From: Planctomycetota bacterium
GTDB lineage: Bacteria; Planctomycetota; GCA-002687715
Reading direction: 5' to 3'
DNA: 64,000 bases
Assembly (NCBI GenBank): GCA_009691765.1
Contig: SIAO01000011.1
Span: 16,407-80,406, forward strand
Within the stretch, counting starts at the first letter, position 1, and each line of letters starts with the position of its first letter. Shown in pieces: positions 49,606-60,534 of the stretch. The position numbers were made by a program, and so were the translations under genes. The notes under the pieces were generated by a model. The model ran no database searches. It worked only from the letters and a program-made list of their open reading frames with translations, and was not told where the DNA came from.

Positions 49606-52038
49606 ATGGAAAGAATCAACATGCCCGTTGCCGTTGCAGCATTACTGATGCTTTCGTTGGGCCTTGTGCCAGCGCAAGACCCAAAGCCCGCGCAGGACAC
49701 CAGCGCCCTTGTAATGCGCCTTGCGACGGCGTCGCCCGAGAACTGCTGGCGCATCGTGAATGATCTTGTCGATCTCGGAGTGCAAGCTCGCCCAGCACTC
49801 AAGGCCGGTTTGACGGCTGCAGAACCCACAGTGCGTTATGGCGCAGCCCGTGCGCTTTGGCAGATCGACAGTGCGCCAGAGGCCGCGATCGTGCTGGCTG
49901 AGTTGGTGCGTAGCGAAGGCAATGAAGCGGTGTCGTTGCTCGCAGCAGATTTCATTGCCGATGAATCCATCGAAGCTGGCGCCACGGCCATTGCCGACCG
50001 CCTCACGCGAACCAAGGGCGCCGAGCGTGCCCGTCTCGCTCGTGACTTGTACGGCGCTTCCAAACAACATCGCGACGTAGCGCGACGCACCTTGCGCGCT
50101 TTGCGCAATGACGCTGAGCGTGAAACCGTGGAAGCGGCGGCCCTCGCGCTTGCGGACATCGGCGATGTCGATGCCGCGCGACCTGTGCTCGAAGCACTCA
50201 AAGACGACCCAGGCTTGCGCGGCAAGCTCGCGCGTCTTCACTTGTTCGCGGACCATCTGAAAGATCTCGTCGAACAAGCCGCCGCGCAAGGCACGCAGAG
50301 CAAGGCGCCTGATCTTCTCGATGAAGTGAAAGCCATGGTGCGCGAACTGCACCAAGAAGGCGACAAGTGGACGGACCGCGAGATGATGGAAGCGGCAGCA
50401 GGCGGCTTGTTGATGGCGCTCGATCCACACTCGGCTTACTTGCCCGTAGACGAACTTGAAGAGTGGGAATTCGATCTCAATCCCACTTACGGCGGCATCG
50501 GTGCCTATGTCAACCTCGACGACTCTCGGCGCATCTTCATTGTGCGCCCGATTTACAGCGGCCCCGCGTACAAAGACGACCTGAAGAGCGGCGACAAGAT
50601 CTTGAAAGTCGACGGCTGGGACACCATGGGCCACGAGCTCAATGAGATCACCAGTCGCATGAAGGGGCCATCAGGCACGAATGTGGTTTTGAATGTGCAC
50701 CGCCGTGGCTGGACCAAGCCACGCGACTTCTCGCTGCTTCGCGCGCAAATCCGCATTCCTACCGTCAACGCAGATCTGCTGCCCGGTGGGCTCGGTTATG
50801 TGCAAGTGACAACCTTTGGTGCCACCACCACCAACGAACTCGAGAACTCGCTGCGCGAACTCGAGCAACGCGGCATGAAAGCGCTCATTCTCGATCTGCG
50901 CTTCAACTCCGGCGGTTTCCTGAAGGCCGCGCAAGACATGGCCGGCAAGTTTTTGTCCGGCAAGCAAGAAGTGGTGTCGTGGGAAGGGCGCAATACGCGT
51001 CTCGCACCCAAGCGTCACCTCTACTCCACCGAACAAGATCATGTCCGTGACCTGCCGCTGGTAGTCCTTGTGAATCGCTATAGCGCATCGGCCTCGGAAA
51101 TCGTGTCCGGTGCGTTGCAGGATCACAAGCGCGCCATGCTCATCGGCGAGCGCACCTTCGGCAAAGGCTCTGTGCAGCGTTTCTTTCCTCTGCAGACCTT
51201 CCCCTCCGAGAGCTTCACAGACGAAGGCCGCTCCAACGGTTTCCACGATGAAGGTGAGGCCTACAAAGACGCCAACCACAACGGAGCTTGGGATGCAGGC
51301 GAATCCTACACGGACGCTGCAACTCGAAATGGTGACTGGGACAAAGGCGAGCCATACACCGACGCCAACAGCAACGGAGTGAAAGACGAGACCGAAGGCT
51401 TCGTCGACCAAAACGGTGACGGCCGCTGGCAAGGTCCAGAAGTGTTCGTGGACGCCAACGACAACAAGAAATACGACCGCGGCCCCGAATTGAAAATGAC
51501 CATCGCGCGCTACTTCCTTCCCTCAGGACGCAGCATTCACACGGAGCGTGATCGCAAGGGCAAAGTCATCGATAAGGGCGGCGTGCTGCCAGATGAAATC
51601 ATCTCTCAGCGTCCTTATGAGGGTTGGAAAGAAGAGGAGTTCACACGCATCCTCGAGACCAAGAAGTTGGAGGAGTTTGTGGACCAACTGGCCAAGACCA
51701 ATCCGACTTTGGCACGTGAGCTCGCTGAATCCGATGGGAAAGACGGTTTGCGCTATCCAGGCTTTGAAGCTCTGCGCGAGGCGCTTCAGACACCCTTGAA
51801 GCCAGACGACTTGCGCCGCCTCACGCGCGCACAGTTGCGCCGGGCCGCGGCCGACTTGCGCGGGCGTGAATACATCGCCGACATTCAAGAAGACCGTCAG
51901 CTACAACGCGCCATTCATACGGCACTGTCGCGCCTCGGCCTCACTATTGGTGACGTGGAGGCCTATGCCTTCTTGAAAGACAACATCCCGCAGCCAACAG
52001 ACCCGACCAAGGAAGAAGCCTCCGACACTGACATCTAG
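49606..52038 (+). CDS. Secreted S41 C-terminal processing peptidase with N-terminal HEAT-like region, PDZ domain and inserted Asp/Asn-rich calcium-binding-like repeats
   Basis: Signal peptide; GGIGAYVNLDD, PDZ-like AYKDDLKSGDKILKVDGWD, NRYSASASEIVSGALQDHKRAMLIGERTFGKGSVQ, LKMTIARYFLPSGRSIH. Confidence 0.93.
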   Translation: MERINMPVAVAALLMLSLGLVPAQDPKPAQDTSALVMRLATASPENCWRIVNDLVDLGVQARPALKAGLTAAEPTVRYGAARALWQIDSAPEAAIVLAELVRSEGNEAVSLLAADFIADESIEAGATAIADRLTRTKGAERARLARDLYGASKQHRDVARRTLRALRNDAERETVEAAALALADIGDVDAARPVLEALKDDPGLRGKLARLHLFADHLKDLVEQAAAQGTQSKAPDLLDEVKAMVRELHQEGDKWTDREMMEAAAGGLLMALDPHSAYLPVDELEEWEFDLNPTYGGIGAYVNLDDSRRIFIVRPIYSGPAYKDDLKSGDKILKVDGWDTMGHELNEITSRMKGPSGTNVVLNVHRRGWTKPRDFSLLRAQIRIPTVNADLLPGGLGYVQVTTFGATTTNELENSLRELEQRGMKALILDLRFNSGGFLKAAQDMAGKFLSGKQEVVSWEGRNTRLAPKRHLYSTEQDHVRDLPLVVLVNRYSASASEIVSGALQDHKRAMLIGERTFGKGSVQRFFPLQTFPSESFTDEGRSNGFHDEGEAYKDANHNGAWDAGESYTDAATRNGDWDKGEPYTDANSNGVKDETEGFVDQNGDGRWQGPEVFVDANDNKKYDRGPELKMTIARYFLPSGRSIHTERDRKGKVIDKGGVLPDEIISQRPYEGWKEEEFTRILETKKLEEFVDQLAKTNPTLARELAESDGKDGLRYPGFEALREALQTPLKPDDLRRLTRAQLRRAAADLRGREYIADIQEDRQLQRAIHTALSRLGLTIGDVEAYAFLKDNIPQPTDPTKEEASDTDI

Positions 52039-52046
52039 GCTGCACT

Positions 52047-52424
52047 TCAGGCGCTGTAGGACACCTCGAACGCGTCGCGAAAGATGTAGCCGCCGCTGAA
52101 ATCCTGTTTGGTGTCGGTGTCCTGCTTCGAAAGCAGGTTGGCCTCGATGAGTTCGAAGACAATTTCTCCAAAGTCCTCGGTGCGGTACACGCCGAGCAAC
52201 TCAAAAACCGTGCGCGCGAGGTAGCCGTAGCGTTCCGTCGCCATGTCGCGCATGCCCGCCAGCAACTGTTGCCCCGTGATGTGGCTGCGCTGGCCTGCTG
52301 CGGCGTGTTTGTGCACGCTGAACGTCACCGCAGCAAGCGTGAAGAGATAGGCCTCTACGCGATAACGCTTGCCGCGTTCCGCAACGGCTCGGACCTTCTC
52401 AAGGGCTTCGTTGACATCGCTCAT
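52047..52424 (-). CDS. Conserved hypothetical of the Planctomycetes/Verrucomicrobia (Minf_1886) type
   Basis: AYLFTLAAVTFSVHKH, HITGQQLLAGMRDMATERYGYLARTVFELLGVYRTEDFGEIVFELIEANLLSKQ. Start from ATG at 52424. Confidence 0.75.
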   Translation of the reverse strand: MSDVNEALEKVRAVAERGKRYRVEAYLFTLAAVTFSVHKHAAAGQRSHITGQQLLAGMRDMATERYGYLARTVFELLGVYRTEDFGEIVFELIEANLLSKQDTDTKQDFSGGYIFRDAFEVSYSA

Positions 52425-52458: not shown

Positions 52459-53469
52459 TCAGAAGCCCCGGACGACACCAACGGAGACCCTGCCCCCCAT
52501 GGCGACATGCGTGAGCACCGTCTGCGCTGCCACATTACTGTCCACCGCTTGGAGCGCCTGCAGCAGCTCTGCGCTACGCCTGTCGATCTCGACGGCGTCC
52601 ATGGATTCAAGTCCCGCGCTCGTAGGCAATCCTGCAGGTGTTTCCAGACCTTCCAGCGTGCGCCTCCGCAGGCGCAAGAGAAACAGCGCTGCTCTCAATA
52701 ACTGGCGCAAGCGCTCGCGAGTGTCTTCCATCTGCTTCTTGTCTTGTTCCAAGGTCGGATAGATCTCTTGAGCCGCAAGAAACGGAGCGCTGCGTGCCTC
52801 GAGCAAACGAACCGCCGGCGCCAGTTGTCCCGCGAAGTCAGCCCGCGCAAGTCCGAGAGCACGTCCAGGAGCCCCTTGCGCAGCAAGTGCCGCGAGATCG
52901 GCAGATACACCGCTGAACCCCTCGCGCGCAAGAAAAGCACTCAGTACGCCACGATCGAGTGGCCCGAGCCGCACGCGCACGCAACGCGAAACCAGCGTTT
53001 CCATGAGCGCGCCCAAAGCGCTGGCTGTGAGCAACAGATGGCTGCCCTCCGGCGGTTCTTCGAGCAGCTTCAAGAGCGCGTTGGCCGCTTCTTCAGTGAG
53101 CCGCTCCGCGTCCACGACAATTGCGACGCGCCGCGAGGCTTCCAGCGGTTTCATGCTGAATTCGCTACGCAGCGCACGCACGTGATCGATGCCAAGCTGA
53201 CGCTTGCCCTGCTCGCGTTGCAACAGCATCAAATCAGGATGCAGTCCTTGTCGCGCCCGCCACGCCGCGCGATCTGCAGAATCCACAAGGCCTTCGGAAT
53301 CTCCAAACATCAGTGCTTCCGCAAAGGCGAGTGCAAGCGTGCGCCGCCCGCTGCCTTCGGGGCCAGTAATGACGATGCCGTTGGGCACACGCCCACGACG
53401 GAGCATGGCACGGAAGAAAGTGCAGGCTTCAGCATGACCAACGACGCGCGCTAGTGGATCCTCGCGCAT
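52459..53469 (-). CDS. holB: DNA polymerase III delta' subunit-like AAA protein
   Basis: VVGHAEACTFFRAMLRRGRVPNGIVITGPEGSGRRTLALAFAEAL; VDAERLTEEAANALLKLLEEPPEGSHLLLTA; upstream of tmk. Confidence 0.85.
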   Translation of the reverse strand: MREDPLARVVGHAEACTFFRAMLRRGRVPNGIVITGPEGSGRRTLALAFAEALMFGDSEGLVDSADRAAWRARQGLHPDLMLLQREQGKRQLGIDHVRALRSEFSMKPLEASRRVAIVVDAERLTEEAANALLKLLEEPPEGSHLLLTASALGALMETLVSRCVRVRLGPLDRGVLSAFLAREGFSGVSADLAALAAQGAPGRALGLARADFAGQLAPAVRLLEARSAPFLAAQEIYPTLEQDKKQMEDTRERLRQLLRAALFLLRLRRRTLEGLETPAGLPTSAGLESMDAVEIDRRSAELLQALQAVDSNVAAQTVLTHVAMGGRVSVGVVRGF

Positions 53470-53472
53470 GAC

Positions 53473-54069
53473 TCAGAGCACCGCTTGCACCGCGGCGCGG
53501 GCCAGAAGTGCGGGTGGCAAAGTTGCATCGAGCACGCGGAACCGCGCTGGGTCGCGCGCTGCTTCGCGCAGATAACCGTCGCGCACGGCTTGCAAGAACG
53601 CGACACCTTTCGCTTCCATGCGATCGTGCTGGCGCTGAATCCTGCCGAGTGCGGTCTGCGGATTCAAATCGAAAAGCAGCACGCGATCTGGCAGCAATGC
53701 TCCCGTTGCGGCGAGATTCATGGCGCGCAGAGCCTCGACATCAGCTCCTCCGGCGTAACCTTGATACGCGAGCGTGGAGTACCACCAGCGATCGAGCAGC
53801 ACAGTTTCACCGCGCGCCAAGGCGGGACGAATCACGGTTTGCACCAACTCAGAGCGAGCCGCTGTGAACAAGCAAGCCTCAGTCCACGCGTTCAGTGCGC
53901 CGCTCGCGGGATCGATCAAAACGGTGCGCAACTTTTCGCCGAACACGGTGCCGCCGGGTTCGCGCAAACAGACGACCTGTTCACCACGTGCCTCGAGGCA
54001 AGCCCTCAGCACAGGAACGCAGCCGCTTTTTCCGGCTCCGTCCATGCCTTCCAGAACCAGTAGCGGCAT
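53473..54069 (-). CDS. tmk: Thymidylate kinase
   Basis: MPLLVLEGMDGAGKSGCVPVL, CLREPGGTVFGEKLRTVLID, LLDRWWYSTLAYQGYAGG, LLFDLNPQTALGRI. Confidence 0.9.
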   Translation of the reverse strand: MPLLVLEGMDGAGKSGCVPVLRACLEARGEQVVCLREPGGTVFGEKLRTVLIDPASGALNAWTEACLFTAARSELVQTVIRPALARGETVLLDRWWYSTLAYQGYAGGADVEALRAMNLAATGALLPDRVLLFDLNPQTALGRIQRQHDRMEAKGVAFLQAVRDGYLREAARDPARFRVLDATLPPALLARAAVQAVL

Positions 54070-54070
54070 A

Positions 54071-55396
54071 TCAGGCCTTGGGTTGAAACAGCCGACGGTC
54101 CACTTCGCGTGATAGCCGCGCAAGGACCGGACTGCTGCGAAAGTGCACGGCTTCGCGCTGCACCATTTGGTGCACGGCCGTGTGGCTGCGCTGACCGAGC
54201 CGTTCGCCGATCTGCTTCAACGTCAGTCCGGCCATTTCTTTCAACAAGAACGCGGCGGCGCCACGCGGCGGACTGAGCGTGCGCGTCTTCTTGCGCGAGA
54301 GGATCGACTCCAGCGGTACGGCGAAATGCTCGCACACCACGGCGAAGATGCAGCGCACGCGACGCTCACGCGGATCGCTCGGTCCTTGAATCTCGGAAAG
54401 GTGCTGGTCAAGGAACGCCTCGGTCACAGGAGCGCCACTCAATCCTGCGAATGCGTATGTCTTCTTCACCAGCAACTCGAGATCGCGCAACGACACATCC
54501 GTGCGTGCTGCGATGAGATCCACGGCCTCACTAGGAATGCGCGCCGGTCCGTATGCGAAACGCGCCCGCAAGATGGCGGCCATCTCGGCACGGCTTGGCG
54601 TGCCAAGACCCACGGTCATGCCGGAGCACAAGAGCGAAGCCAACACGGGATCCAAAGCACTCAACTGTGCGAGCGGAACCTGAGAGAACGCGAGCAGTTT
54701 CCCGCGCCGCATCAACAGTTCCTTCAACTGCAAACTCAGCTCGCGCTGCGTTGCGACTTTGCCCACGAGAGCTTGCACATCGTCGAGGATGACACAGTCA
54801 GCTCGCAAGAAGCCGCCGCGGAAATCGTTGATGTGACGCGAACGCTGCGCCCAACCGAAATCGCGCACAACTTTCTCGCCATTCAAAGCCAACACTCTGA
54901 GTGCCCGCGACATGGTGGATTGCGCCGCATCCGCTAGATGCGTCTTGCCGCTCGATGTCGACCCGCAGACCAACAAAGGGTTCAGCATCGGCTGACGCCC
55001 TTCCATGAAGTGGCGCAGCGCCTTCAGGGCGGCTGCCGAGCCCGCTGTAGGAGCGAATTCCTCGAATCCTCGGCCGGGTCGTGGCGCGCGGCTGCGCCGA
55101 GCTTGTTCCTTGTCGGCTTGAGTCTCCGCGCTGGCAGACACCGCAGCGGCATGCACCAGCACTTCGATCTTCATCGTGGCGCCGAATTCGGCAGCGACGA
55201 GACGCTCCAACTGGCTGCCGAAACTGGTGGTGATCCACTCGCGGGTCGTCACGTTAGGCACGCCGAGCTGCAACGTGCCACGCTTCAGTTCTACAAAACG
55301 AGCACGCACGAACCACAGCTTCCAAGCTGCGTCCCCGATGCTGGCGCGCATGAGTTCCAACACTCGTGCACAACGACTGTGAATCACCGCGTCCAT
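54071..55396 (-). CDS. DnaA-like protein, divergent
   Basis: N-term domain I-like WKLWF...LQLGVPNVTTREWI; Walker A CGSTSSGKTHL; Walker B CVILDDVQAL; C-term LTLKQIGERLGQRSHTAVHQMV like DnaA domain IV. Confidence 0.85.
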   Translation of the reverse strand: MDAVIHSRCARVLELMRASIGDAAWKLWFVRARFVELKRGTLQLGVPNVTTREWITTSFGSQLERLVAAEFGATMKIEVLVHAAAVSASAETQADKEQARRSRAPRPGRGFEEFAPTAGSAAALKALRHFMEGRQPMLNPLLVCGSTSSGKTHLADAAQSTMSRALRVLALNGEKVVRDFGWAQRSRHINDFRGGFLRADCVILDDVQALVGKVATQRELSLQLKELLMRRGKLLAFSQVPLAQLSALDPVLASLLCSGMTVGLGTPSRAEMAAILRARFAYGPARIPSEAVDLIAARTDVSLRDLELLVKKTYAFAGLSGAPVTEAFLDQHLSEIQGPSDPRERRVRCIFAVVCEHFAVPLESILSRKKTRTLSPPRGAAAFLLKEMAGLTLKQIGERLGQRSHTAVHQMVQREAVHFRSSPVLARLSREVDRRLFQPKA

Positions 55397-55415: not shown

Positions 55416-58286
55416 TCATCGAGCCCCCGCTCGACGGCGCACATCCTTGGCGATCTCGTGCTCGGGCACAAGGGCCAATGCTTTTTCTGCAACACTCAAC
55501 GCCTCTTGTGAACGTCCAAGTTGCAACAACACCTCGCCGAGCGCCGCCAAGAGATCGGCCTCTGCGGTCGTCGTCGGCTGACACGCAAGCCCTACGCGCA
55601 GCGCTGCTTCTGCTTCAGCGAAGCGCTTGAGTTCTGTGCCCACGCGCCCACGTTGCAGATGCAGTTGAGCATCGATCGGATGCACGAGCGTTTGCGCGTC
55701 GAGATGCCGCAACATTTCTTCGCTTTGCCCCTTGACAGCCAAGAGCTTCAAGATCTCAGCACGCGCTTCGAGATCTTCGGAATCCAGCGCAACATGTTCG
55801 GAAAGAACTTGCATGGCTTCTTCACTTCGATTGTGAGTCAAAAGCAACTTCGCAAGCTGGCGACGCGGGCCTGTGCGCGACGCGTTCATGGGGAAAGTGG
55901 TGATGGCAGCGCGCATCTCTCGCTCTGCCCCTTCCGTGTCGCCTGAGTCGAGCAAGAGTCGCGCAAGCAGAGCGTGGATGTCAGTGTCTTCGAGGCCCGC
56001 TTTGCGCGCGTCTTGAAGGTGCTTCAGTGCGCTGCCCTTGTCTCCAGCTTTGGCAGCGAGTCGACCTTGCAAAGCCAGCAACTGTGGATCGCCTGCGCCC
56101 AACTTCGCCGCCACTTGGTCCACCGCCAAGCGTGCGGCCGCAAGGCTCGTGCGATCGAGCAGCGTCGCAGCAGCGCTCAGCAATGTGGCTGCATCAGCGG
56201 TGCCGCTGGCCGCGCCCGCAGTCGCCACTTTCAAACCCTGTTCCGAAAGGCGCGGGATGCGCTTCAGCGTTGCAATGCGCGCCCGTGCAGCAGTCGCGAT
56301 ACCGCGATCGAGCTCGTCCAAACTCAAGCCGAGAACATCTTGGGCAGCGGCCGCGAAACCCTTGTCCTCACCAAGTGCAACCAGCAGAGCGCGCATGCGT
56401 TCCATGCCGTACTCCTGCACCAACCATTCCGCGGCAAGCCCCGCCTGGAAATACGCGAACACCACTCGCGGTGATCCGAACGCTGCTTCGAACTGCCGGA
56501 CGGGAATCAACTCGCCCGCCGCCACGGCATCATGAAGATCGAGGTCCATGTGCCTGTCCCACGCCGGAAAGAGCGCGCGCTCTTCGTAGGTGCTCAGACC
56601 TTCGGTGAGCCACCGCGGAACACGGCCACGAGACAACCCGAGCGTGAAACTGTGCGCCAGCTCGTGATGCAAAGTGCGCGCCCATGAAGCACTGCCTGGT
56701 TGCAGCGCACTTGGCGACAACATGGTCAGGAGTGGACCGAAACAGAAACCAAGAAAGCCCACGCGCGGCAAAGCAAAGGTGCGCGCTGTGAGATCGCCAC
56801 TGCTCATCAACACTTCCACGCGCATACGCCCTGCGTCATCCAGACCTTGCGGTTTGAATCCGTATTTCTTTTCCAGAAGCGCCCACGATTGCTCCGCGAA
56901 AGGCGCGATCACGGGTTCCAGCGCGGCGCGTTCACGCTTTGCCAGACGCAAGAGCAAATGCTGCGTGGGCACATCTTCGTAGTAGCGCCCGACCACGCGC
57001 ACAAACTCACTCATGTTCTTGCGGCGCACATGCGAGAACTTTTCGGCTGCGGCAGCGGCATTCAGAGCTTCTTCTGCCAGCTTGTCTTCGCCAAGAAACA
57101 GCGCGTAACGCGCCACAGCATCGTGAGCGAGCGCGCTGGATGGCTCCAATGCAGCAGCGGCTCGTGCGAAAGCCAGGCTCTCGCTCCAACGCCGACGATT
57201 GGAGAGCACCTCGGCCACCATCAAACGCGGCACGGCTTGCTGAGAGCGCAACGCGTCAGCACGCGAGAGAGCCGCTTCACCAGCGACAGATCCATCAGCG
57301 AGCAACGCAAGAGCCGCAAGCAATCCAAGCCCGCGCAAATCCCGCGGATGCCGCTGCATGAACTCTGTCAGCGTGCCACTGGCTGCATTGAGCTCGACGT
57401 TGTCGAGCATGCGTGCTGCCTTCCACAGAGTTGCTTCCGGTTGGAGCGAATGAATGCTCAACGCGCGCGTGTAGGCCGCCACAGATTCTTCTTGCTTCTG
57501 CCAAGACTCGTACGCCCGTCCGAGCAAACCCAATGCTGGCGCAAGGTCTTTGCGCAACAACAAAGCCGCCTTGCCCTCCTCCACCGCATCACCTTCAAGG
57601 TGATGCTGATCAAGGTAAAGCCGCGCAAGGCCTAGCGTGGGGATCCAAATATCCAAGTCCACCGTTTCTGGGTGCGCGCGCGCTGCACTCTCGACGCTCT
57701 TTTGCGCTTCGACCAGCACCGCTTCGGCTTCCTTCGGCCCACCGAACACAACATAAGCCTCGGCAAGAGCCACGAGGTCGCGCGGTGCGCGCAACACCAC
57801 GCGGCGCGACTCGTCGAGCATGCGCTCGAGCAAAGCGTCGCTCTCGCTTTGCAAACCTGCATCACGACGCACCGCAGCGAGCAGCGCTGTCGCAGGCAAA
57901 TCGAATGCTGGCTCGCTTGCAGGCGCAGGGTCTTTGGAGCGCGTGAAGGGTTCGAGCAACGCAACTGCTGCATCAAGCTTGCCGCTCTCGTGGAGTATGC
58001 GCGCACGCGCCAGTGTTGCTGTGACGCTTTGCGGACAGAGCGCGAGCCAAGCGGTGGAATACGATTCCATGGAATCGAACGCACCCGTGTTCACGGCTGC
58101 ATGAAATGCGACCTCCAGCCACTCAGCAGCAAGCGGGCCTTTGGCAGCCGCTTCTTGCGCTGCTTTGAGCACTGCGGCGTCACCACCCTGCAACAACATG
58201 CGGCGCGCTTCATGCGCTTCGTCTTGAGCAACCAGCGGCAAAGACTGAACGAAAAACCAAAGACAAATGGCGATAGTGCAACGCAT
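55416..58286 (-). CDS. Secreted TPR protein with gluzincin metallopeptidase (peptidase MA-like) domain
   Basis: Signal peptide; HHELAHSFTLGLSRGRVPRWLTEGLSTYEE (HExxH plus downstream Glu); TPR arrays on both sides. Confidence 0.88.
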   Translation of the reverse strand: MRCTIAICLWFFVQSLPLVAQDEAHEARRMLLQGGDAAVLKAAQEAAAKGPLAAEWLEVAFHAAVNTGAFDSMESYSTAWLALCPQSVTATLARARILHESGKLDAAVALLEPFTRSKDPAPASEPAFDLPATALLAAVRRDAGLQSESDALLERMLDESRRVVLRAPRDLVALAEAYVVFGGPKEAEAVLVEAQKSVESAARAHPETVDLDIWIPTLGLARLYLDQHHLEGDAVEEGKAALLLRKDLAPALGLLGRAYESWQKQEESVAAYTRALSIHSLQPEATLWKAARMLDNVELNAASGTLTEFMQRHPRDLRGLGLLAALALLADGSVAGEAALSRADALRSQQAVPRLMVAEVLSNRRRWSESLAFARAAAALEPSSALAHDAVARYALFLGEDKLAEEALNAAAAAEKFSHVRRKNMSEFVRVVGRYYEDVPTQHLLLRLAKRERAALEPVIAPFAEQSWALLEKKYGFKPQGLDDAGRMRVEVLMSSGDLTARTFALPRVGFLGFCFGPLLTMLSPSALQPGSASWARTLHHELAHSFTLGLSRGRVPRWLTEGLSTYEERALFPAWDRHMDLDLHDAVAAGELIPVRQFEAAFGSPRVVFAYFQAGLAAEWLVQEYGMERMRALLVALGEDKGFAAAAQDVLGLSLDELDRGIATAARARIATLKRIPRLSEQGLKVATAGAASGTADAATLLSAAATLLDRTSLAAARLAVDQVAAKLGAGDPQLLALQGRLAAKAGDKGSALKHLQDARKAGLEDTDIHALLARLLLDSGDTEGAEREMRAAITTFPMNASRTGPRRQLAKLLLTHNRSEEAMQVLSEHVALDSEDLEARAEILKLLAVKGQSEEMLRHLDAQTLVHPIDAQLHLQRGRVGTELKRFAEAEAALRVGLACQPTTTAEADLLAALGEVLLQLGRSQEALSVAEKALALVPEHEIAKDVRRRAGAR

Positions 58287-58340
58287 AGGTGAGTTGGGAG
58301 AAGCTCATTGAACGGGATGCGCGAATCCCGCGCAACCCGG

Positions 58341-59330
58341 TTAGGAATGCGCCGTCAGTACAGCCTGAAGCAAGCGCTGCACCTTTTGACGCAGACTCTC
58401 CGGCGCGAGCACTTCAAACTCACCGCCAAAGGCCAGCAGCACCTTCGCAAGCGATTCTTCATCAGCGATCTGTGGATACCAAAGCGCAGATCCATCAGCG
58501 CCGTCTTCGACGCTGCCGGCTTCGGCACCCTCGCGAATCCAGCGTGCGGCGACACCCGTGAAACGCACTTTCGCGCGCTGATGTGCTTCGAAACCCAAAA
58601 GCGGTCGGCGCGTCCACTCTTCAAGACGCAAACTTGCCGGGATCTCGAAATGCCGATCCAAGACACGCATTCCCCGAACGCGATCAAAGCGGAAGAAACG
58701 CGGAGCGCTCTCACCTTCCACCAACGCCACGAGGTACCAGTGACCATCACGGTGCACCCCACCGTAGGGGTGCAAATCAAGCGCACGAGCGACACCGTCT
58801 CGCCCCGCGACGTAGTCCAACGAAATCACGCGGCGATCAAACAGCGCTGACGCCAAACGCTGCTGAATGCTGCTGCCAGACTCGACCGCATCTTCTGCGA
58901 GGCGAACGCGCTTGCTGAGCGAGCGGAACAGACTGCGCTGTTTGGGCCCCATGCTCTCCTCAACTTTGCGCAATAGCACCTGAATGGACTTGTTAGGCCG
59001 CTCACCCAAAGGCGCCGTGCTCTCGCACGCGATTTTCAGAGATAGCGCTTCAATGGCATTAAGACTGACAGGCCGCCGGAAATGATCGGCGAAGGCCATG
59101 TGCACACGATCGCCTTCGAGCGAAAAACAAATGTAGTCGTGCGGGAAGTATGGCGGCACACCGCACATGAGCAATGTCGAGCTCAAATCTTCAAGCACTT
59201 GTTCGCGCGTAGAGAAAGCACGCTTCGCAAGTTCATCAACGCTGATGCCTTGGTGTTGCAACACGATGGGCACCAAACTGAGGCAACGATTAAGAGTTTC
59301 GAGAGTGCTGTCCGCCATGAGTGATTTCAA
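58341..59330 (-). CDS. WYL-domain transcriptional regulator (PafC-like)
   Basis: SLDYVAGRDGVARALDLHPYGGVHRDGHWYLVALVEGESAPRFFRFDRVRGMRVLDRHFEIP; ATGA overlap with upstream WYL gene. Confidence 0.87.
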   Translation of the reverse strand: MKSLMADSTLETLNRCLSLVPIVLQHQGISVDELAKRAFSTREQVLEDLSSTLLMCGVPPYFPHDYICFSLEGDRVHMAFADHFRRPVSLNAIEALSLKIACESTAPLGERPNKSIQVLLRKVEESMGPKQRSLFRSLSKRVRLAEDAVESGSSIQQRLASALFDRRVISLDYVAGRDGVARALDLHPYGGVHRDGHWYLVALVEGESAPRFFRFDRVRGMRVLDRHFEIPASLRLEEWTRRPLLGFEAHQRAKVRFTGVAARWIREGAEAGSVEDGADGSALWYPQIADEESLAKVLLAFGGEFEVLAPESLRQKVQRLLQAVLTAHS

Positions 59331-60376
59331 CCAGCGCTCGCAGCGAGCTGTTCAGGGGTTGCAATTGTGTGGTTGACAGCATTGGTCTGCAGCAGTGCTT
59401 CCGCAGCTTCGCAGACTTGTTGACGCAAAGACTGCGGCGCATCCACCACCACGGCGCCGCCTCTGGCAAGCAACCACGGAATGAGCTCCGCAGGACGACG
59501 AACGCTCAATTCGAAGCGCACTCCGCGAGCATCGCTGCTCACTTCCGCTGCACGAGCCGGCATGATCTGCGTCGGGGCGCCCTGCGGTACACGCAACAGC
59601 ACTGTGAGCGGCTTGTTGTCGCCAAGCTCCCAGCCTTCTTCGCGCAAGTGACGCGCCAACGCGAACTCCACAGGAACATCGAAGTCCGGTCCTTGGCCTT
59701 GACCACACAGATCCACTTCGCCTTGAATGCGTGCGAGCTTGAACGTGCGGATTTCCTGCTGGTGGCAACAATGTCCGACGACATACCACGCGCCGCGGAC
59801 CATGCCGATGCCGTACGGGTCCAGTTGCCGCACCGCGGCTGTACCGCTTAAAGGTGCATATTTGAAACGCACGCGCCGACTCCCGGCCACCGCTTGCGCG
59901 AGTGCAGCAAGGGTCATTTGTGCACCGGGGTCACCACTTTGAGCGCGAAGACTCGTGAGCGCGTGGATTTCCGCAGCAATGTCGCCATCCGGTAAGTCCA
60001 CAGACAGCTTGCGAAGTGCACTCTTCAACGCTTCGCCGAGCAATCCACCACCGGTAGCCACTTGCCCCACGCGTGCAGCCATGCTGAGCACGACCGCTTC
60101 TTCGTGGGTGAACTCCATTTCGCGCTGCGTGACGCGCTCCCTGCGGATCACATACCCCAGTTGATCCGGATTTTGGTCCGTGTAATCGACCTCAATGGCA
60201 AGTTGCCGCAGATCGCGCTTGTCGCGTTCGAAGCGCTTCTCAAGAGCTTCCGCACTGGCCGCATCGTCGTAACCAATCACTTGCCCACGGATGGCGCTGA
60301 ACGGAATCGGATGCTTGGACGCCAACAACACCGCTACGAGATTCATCAATCTTTCGAGCTTAGATACAACTGCCAT
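59327..60376 (-). CDS. WYL-domain transcriptional regulator (PafB-like)
   Basis: KLERLMNLVAVLLASKHPIPFSAIRGQV, EKRFERDKRDLRQLAIEV, RQLDPYGIGMVRGAWYVVGHCCHQQEIRTFKLARI. Confidence 0.9.
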   Translation of the reverse strand: MAVVSKLERLMNLVAVLLASKHPIPFSAIRGQVIGYDDAASAEALEKRFERDKRDLRQLAIEVDYTDQNPDQLGYVIRRERVTQREMEFTHEEAVVLSMAARVGQVATGGGLLGEALKSALRKLSVDLPDGDIAAEIHALTSLRAQSGDPGAQMTLAALAQAVAGSRRVRFKYAPLSGTAAVRQLDPYGIGMVRGAWYVVGHCCHQQEIRTFKLARIQGEVDLCGQGQGPDFDVPVEFALARHLREEGWELGDNKPLTVLLRVPQGAPTQIMPARAAEVSSDARGVRFELSVRRPAELIPWLLARGGAVVVDAPQSLRQQVCEAAEALLQTNAVNHTIATPEQLAASAG

Positions 60377-60534
60377 CGGACACCCTTCTTGAACGCGCTC
60401 TCTCCCCGGATCGAAGACCGCACCGGGTGCTGCAACCGCCAACCGCCGCAACAGCGCCGCGATGCTATCCACGCCAAGGGAGTGCGGTCAACCCAGTGCC
60501 GAGCAGAAGCAGAACTCACGGCTGCGGCATGACT

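Follow-up and report, generated by a model that had tools for sequence, protein, structure and literature searches.

DnaA2, an operon-encoded and divergent DnaA of planctomycetes, is probably a regulator rather than a replication initiator

The stretch of DNA analysed here (the window, 64,000 nucleotides of a Planctomycetota bacterium) encodes a divergent DnaA paralogue, DnaA2, which is probably a regulator rather than a replication initiator. We give a probability of roughly 0.55 to the reading that DnaA2 is an operon-encoded, ancient paralogue and a site-binding, DnaA-derived regulator which would be unable to build a filament or to melt an origin. As read from the alignments, DnaA2 keeps domain I, the P-loop (in most members) and the HTH of domain IV, and has lost R285, R281, R227, V211 and R245 (E. 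coli numbering). Because several of the defining residues tested are absent, the protein is placed in the DnaA family by homology and not as an initiator. DnaA is usually regarded as a single, nearly invariant protein, and many planctomycetes have an unusual division. Here many families of one phylum hold two DnaAs. Next to a conventional initiator there is a partner encoded in an operon, and in this partner nearly every residue biochemically tied to oligomerisation or origin melting has been removed, and the DNA-binding residues and the operon have been held. DnaA2 can be seen as a natural separation-of-function DnaA, which gives a way into the roles of DnaA besides initiation and offers a route to planctomycete cell-cycle control.

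The gene starts with the ATG at 55396 (MDAVIHS...), which fits the N-termini of the orthologues better than the GTG upstream at 55495. The protein matches Pfam DnaA_N (1.6e-8), Bac_DnaA (1.8e-16) and Bac_DnaA_C (5.8e-15) in this order, all above the Pfam cutoffs, and the DnaA equivalog model TIGR00362 spans its whole length at 221.5 bits, under the cutoff of 343.9 bits. The gene and its parts are:

54071..55396, minus strand: dnaA2, divergent DnaA paralogue of 441 aa with domains I, III and IV (Pfam, TIGR00362, AlphaFold)
55157..55396, minus strand: domain I, residues 1-80; Pfam DnaA_N at residues 11-68, T in place of F46, W50 kept
54941..54964, minus strand: Walker A GSTSSGKT, residues 145-152, intact by alignment; Lys kept in 8/9 class and 15/16 clade members
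54779..54796, minus strand: Walker B, residues 201-206 (...DD), intact by alignment
54674..54700, minus strand: sensor I region, Q239 aligned with D269; R at this position in 13/16 clade members
54620..54652, minus strand: box VII region, residues 249-259, R281 replaced by V251 and R285 by L255 in the alignment
54467..54493, minus strand: sensor II region, residues 302-310, Arg present in the alignment (R304 = E. coli R334)
54074..54364, minus strand: DNA-binding domain IV, spanning residues 345-441; R399 is K370 and D433 is S404, with H405 and T406 kept

An AlphaFold model based on an alignment of 16 orthologues has a mean pLDDT of 86.7 and a pTM of 0.58, so that it leaves the mutual placement of the domains uncertain. 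All of its best PDB matches are DnaA structures, and structure comparison of the model assigns the DnaA fold to domain III (rmsd 2.4 Å over 232 columns to domain III of B. subtilis DnaA, 8bv3; TM 0.88 by target). Within the dnaA2 clade of 16 members the AAA+ and HTH domains are covered in 16/16 and domain I in 12/16. Canonical DnaA (TIGR00362; B. subtilis 8btg, T. maritima 2z4r, A. aeolicus 1l8q) shares with DnaA2 the three folded domains and their order as well as Walker A and B, K243, R407, H434 and T435. Unlike canonical DnaA, DnaA2 is without R285, R281, R227, V211 and R245, carries S for D433 and K for R399, and is not linked to dnaN. Hda (TIGR03420), a DnaA-derived AAA+ regulator, is a weak match to DnaA2 (48 bits against a cutoff of 195) and is without domains I and IV, whereas DnaA2 has both. 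The DnaC/DnaI/IstB-type ATPases belong to the same AAA+ initiator clade; DnaA2 differs from them in having DnaA domain I and the DnaA-specific HTH domain IV.

Positions inside motifs were counted on the E. coli DnaA sequence. In DnaA, R227 (AID-1) is an inter-subunit residue, and V211 and R245 are the ssDNA-binding H/B residues which grip single-stranded origin DNA. R285, R281, R227, L290 and K243 are oligomerisation residues, of which R285, R281 and R227 are required for domain III contacts (PMC5742627). Arginine-finger mutants of three other DnaAs bound TNP-ATP and failed in strand separation (PMC8287927).

The translation of dnaA2 was aligned to the DnaAs of B. subtilis, T. maritima and A. 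aeolicus, with E. coli numbering according to PMC5742627. It contains all motifs quoted in an earlier note on this DNA (CGSTSSGKTHL, ILDDVQAL, VLASLLCSGMTVGL, SLRDLELLVKKTYAFAG and GQRSHTAV), and the alignment bears out that Walker A (K151) and Walker B (D205, D206) are intact, as was stated there. The box VII arginine was rightly reported as missing: both R281 (V251) and the arginine finger R285 (L255) are gone, and the stretch P241-S267 holds no Arg or Lys that might serve as a displaced finger. The sensor II arginine was reported as missing too, but it is present: R304 in SLRDLE is aligned to the arginine which B. subtilis has in (N)IRELEG and which corresponds to E. coli R334. The accompanying statement that the box VII and sensor II arginines are needed for oligomerisation holds for R285 and R281 but not for R334, which matters for ATP hydrolysis and is dispensable for initiation complexes (PMC5742627). 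The earlier note passed over the further substitutions R227L, V211G, R245A, D269Q and R399K; the change at R245 is by itself weak evidence, because B. subtilis DnaA also departs from R at this position, with Q. K243 is kept; at L290 there is M, which several canonical copies have too. The DnaA-box contacts R399/R407/D433/H434/T435 read K/R/S/H/T, three of five being kept; in the DHT segment, described earlier as altered, Asp is indeed changed (S404) but His and Thr are kept.

Residues were counted in nine DnaA2 copies of the class and in 38 canonical copies; the wider operon clade has 16 members, seven of them outside the class. The finger R285 is found in none of the nine DnaA2 copies against 37 of the 38 canonical ones, R281 in 1/9 against 37/38, R227 in 0/9 against 38/38, and I, V, L or M at V211 in 0/9 against 38/38. 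Sensor II R334 occurs in 3/9 DnaA2 copies (canonical 38/38) and D269 in 1/9 (canonical 36/38). The first Walker B Asp is present throughout (9/9 and 38/38), and the Walker A Lys in 8/9 against 38/38; since the DnaA2 of genome G001 has R in place of this Lys, ATP binding may be dispensable. Outside the class, R285 is found in three of the seven clade members (3/16 of the wider clade). Independent genomes from about ten families show substitutions at these positions too, which rules out a sequencing error.

Domain IV is the most conserved stretch of the class alignment, with invariant residues in the nine sequences that include K403, P410-R411, T425, G430, G434 and R436-S437-H438-T439 (numbering of the 474-aa frame). 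R407 and H434 are each present in 9/9 DnaA2 and 38/38 canonical copies. R399 is K in all nine DnaA2 copies against R in 36/38 canonical ones, and D433 is S in all nine against D in 37/38; with both changes fixed in the class, the altered DNA recognition proposed earlier is plausible. Conservation of H434 and T435 does not extend beyond the class, with 9/16 in the wider clade. F46 of E. coli DnaA is a contact to helicase and DiaA. It is replaced in the own genus of dnaA2 (T, T, M) and in G009, which argues against an adaptor that recruits helicase or serves the replisome through domain I and the link to holB instead of acting on DNA sites; so does the conservation of domain IV. W50 of domain I, kept in 9/9, and the operon shared with holB speak for such an adaptor, which we nevertheless regard as quite doubtful.

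The neighbours of dnaA2 in the window are:

53473..54069, minus strand: tmk (dTMP kinase), beginning directly after dnaA2 (TIGR00041, 1.5e-42)
52459..53469, minus strand: holB, DNA polymerase III delta' subunit (TIGR00678, 2.5e-45, 154 bits, below the cutoff of 180.6; Pfam DNA_pol3_delta2, 2e-34, above cutoff)
52047..52424, minus strand: Minf_1886 family protein, final gene of the conserved cluster (TIGR04138, 6.8e-34; orthologues at the same loci)
55416..58286, minus strand: TPR protein carrying a peptidase domain of gluzincin type (HELAH), opening gene of the cluster (Pfam TPR, Peptidase_MA_2; same place elsewhere)
58307..58335, minus strand: weak promoter-like TTGCGC-N17-TTCAAT ahead of the cluster, spacing shared by G003, G004 and G009
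58341..60472, minus strand: pair of WYL-domain regulators, the HTH of one being PafC-type; linkage seen in the class families f1 and f2
49606..52038, plus strand: S41 peptidase containing PDZ and HEAT repeats; a convergent gene, conserved as neighbour at the same loci

As the earlier note had remarked, dnaA2 sits beside tmk and holB, which directly follow it, with no oriC-like cluster nearby. The box scan found no DnaA-box cluster near dnaA2, a weak test in that the canonical loci of the genus and class are box-poor as well; because boxes are few even at the canonical dnaA of the genus, no cognate site can be proposed for DnaA2. Nor is dnaA2 linked to dnaN, its neighbours being tmk and holB. 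The order TPR-peptidase, dnaA2, tmk, holB, Minf_1886 with the convergent S41 peptidase occurs in families f1, f2, f3, f6, f8, f18, f21, f27, f37 and f41; some loci have inserted genes, an undetected tmk, or a contig end reached first. Minf_1886 (TIGR04138) is the closing gene of the tmk-holB operon at almost every locus that has it, and its protein is possibly replication-related. The constant first gene encodes a secreted-looking TPR protein with a gluzincin motif. A promoter footprint before the operon was rejected as a basis, a TTG-N20-TTCAAT-like element being present in few members only and too weak. The WYL pair lies directly upstream of the operon in f1 and f2 and was not seen in G009 (f3). 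PafBC of mycobacteria are regulators which respond to DNA damage, and by this analogy the WYL pair suggests a possible DNA-damage link for the dnaA2 operon.

The window belongs to a 90% complete MAG (G000; 2.58 Mb, 28 contigs). In two domain searches of this assembly nothing but dnaA2 matched the DnaA ATPase and HTH families, as would be expected if DnaA2 were the sole initiator of the species, a lineage-specific DnaA with an altered mechanism and origin. This is hardly credible, however, given the incomplete assembly, in which dnaN has no match at all and orthologues of two genes that flank canonical dnaA in G002 are absent (distant homologues only), and given that both congeners have a canonical locus dnaA-dnaN-gyrB in addition to dnaA2. 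As dnaN and the two flanking-gene orthologues are absent along with canonical dnaA, a gap in the assembly is the simplest reading, and the canonical dnaA locus is most simply missing from G000 in this way. The earlier note had offered two alternatives and proposed a search of the complete genome for a second, canonical dnaA. Such a gene is absent from the G000 assembly but present in both congeners, and so the alternative of a lineage-specific sole initiator falls, whereas that of a paralogue which binds DNA and ATP and forms no canonical helix is supported.

Across 59 Planctomycetota genomes, 46 have at least two matches to the DnaA ATPase family; in a few cases the second is a short DnaC/IstB-like protein. 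The class (12 genomes of one order, G000 included) has operon-type DnaA2 in 10 and canonical DnaA in 10 genomes. In G007, a 93%-complete MAG of the same order, no DnaA match at all was found, which is probably due to its fragmentation (about 330 contigs). Extra full-length DnaA copies are on record for other members of the PVC group, as excerpts of two accounts report: Waddlia has DnaA1 and DnaA3, which in Chlamydiae are treated as transcription factors (PMC4989314), and Kuenenia has three dnaA copies, only one of them beside dnaN and gyrB (PMC7709395). Unlike what is seen for DnaA2, neither a tmk-holB operon nor a missing finger is described in these excerpts (PMC4989314, PMC7709395), and no description of a tmk-holB-linked DnaA2 or of its missing finger was found among open-licence papers. 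DnaA multiplicity in the PVC group is known, and the operon-linked DnaA2 class was not found described.

DnaA2 is an ancient, vertically inherited paralogue. In a tree of 37 rows, 14 operon-type DnaA2 sequences split from all canonical DnaAs, those of B. subtilis, Thermotoga and Aquifex included, with support 100/99.8; the position of the DnaA2 root is unsure because of long branches. Holding the DnaA2 of the class together with the class's own canonical DnaA was rejected (p-AU 3e-5), and a recent duplication from the latter is ruled out by this AU test. Within the class the DnaA2 subtree roughly follows the canonical subtree. A phage origin was rejected as well, with weak matches only (best 25% identity) and no PHROG match.

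The gene is under purifying selection (dN/dS about 0.15). Between G000 and G002, DnaA2 shares 74% identity with a dN/dS of 0.149, against 0.165 for holB and 0.157 for the TPR gene, ratios which are approximate because synonymous sites are near saturation. DnaA2 evolves faster than canonical dnaA (48% versus 73% identity between G001 and G002), and this together with the eroded AAA+ core would fit a decaying, functionless relic carried along by the operon. Such decay is very improbable in view of a frame that stays open in about ten families, the low dN/dS between close relatives, the invariant residues of domain IV and the high-confidence predicted fold.

As a DnaA-derived regulator, DnaA2 would bind nucleotide and, via domain IV, particular double-stranded sites, with a preference that may have been shifted from DnaA boxes by the changes of R399 to K and D433 to S. 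It would be unable to donate an arginine finger, to form the canonical head-to-tail filament or to melt the origin, and would most likely act as a transcription factor or as a site-occupying modulator which couples initiation or the tmk-holB operon to the state of the cell. Since the DnaA-box scans found no binding site for DnaA2, site-specific binding is deduced from domain IV by itself, and regulation of tmk-holB from the operon position by itself.

Another view, possible if unlikely, is that the ATP site of DnaA2 accepts the finger of canonical DnaA while DnaA2 donates none, so that it caps or poisons the helix and limits initiation, as a full-length, DNA-bound counterpart of the role of Hda in E. 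coli. The ATP site is kept and the donor arginines are lost, R285 and the ATP site lie on opposite faces in E. coli (PMC5742627), and most members keep domain I, all of which would suit a cap; but the inter-subunit R227 is lost as well (0/9), the clade as a whole does not conserve sensor I and sensor II, and no clamp-binding or hydrolysis role is visible. Distinctly unlikely is a trans-acting brake on initiation, a full-length ATP- and site-binding DnaA that would join or block canonical assemblies, donate no finger and be co-produced with dTMP kinase and delta', in f1 and f2 maybe under damage-responsive, PafBC-like WYL regulators. We prefer the site-binding regulator over both.

Linkage to dnaN was found for most of the canonical dnaA copies fetched. 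At four loci, L060 (G057), L048 (G024), L071 (G027) and L044 (G018), the dnaN-adjacent DnaA is a divergent copy, and in these genomes the copy which scores better with the DnaA profile is located elsewhere, as if the roles were swapped. In G003, of the same family as G000, the DnaA linked to dnaN and gyrB (L074, 7263-8750) is otherwise canonical and has R285 replaced by L, R281 by K and D269 by N; R227 is retained, and the V211 position is still hydrophobic. A finger-less initiator at the canonical locus would be odd.
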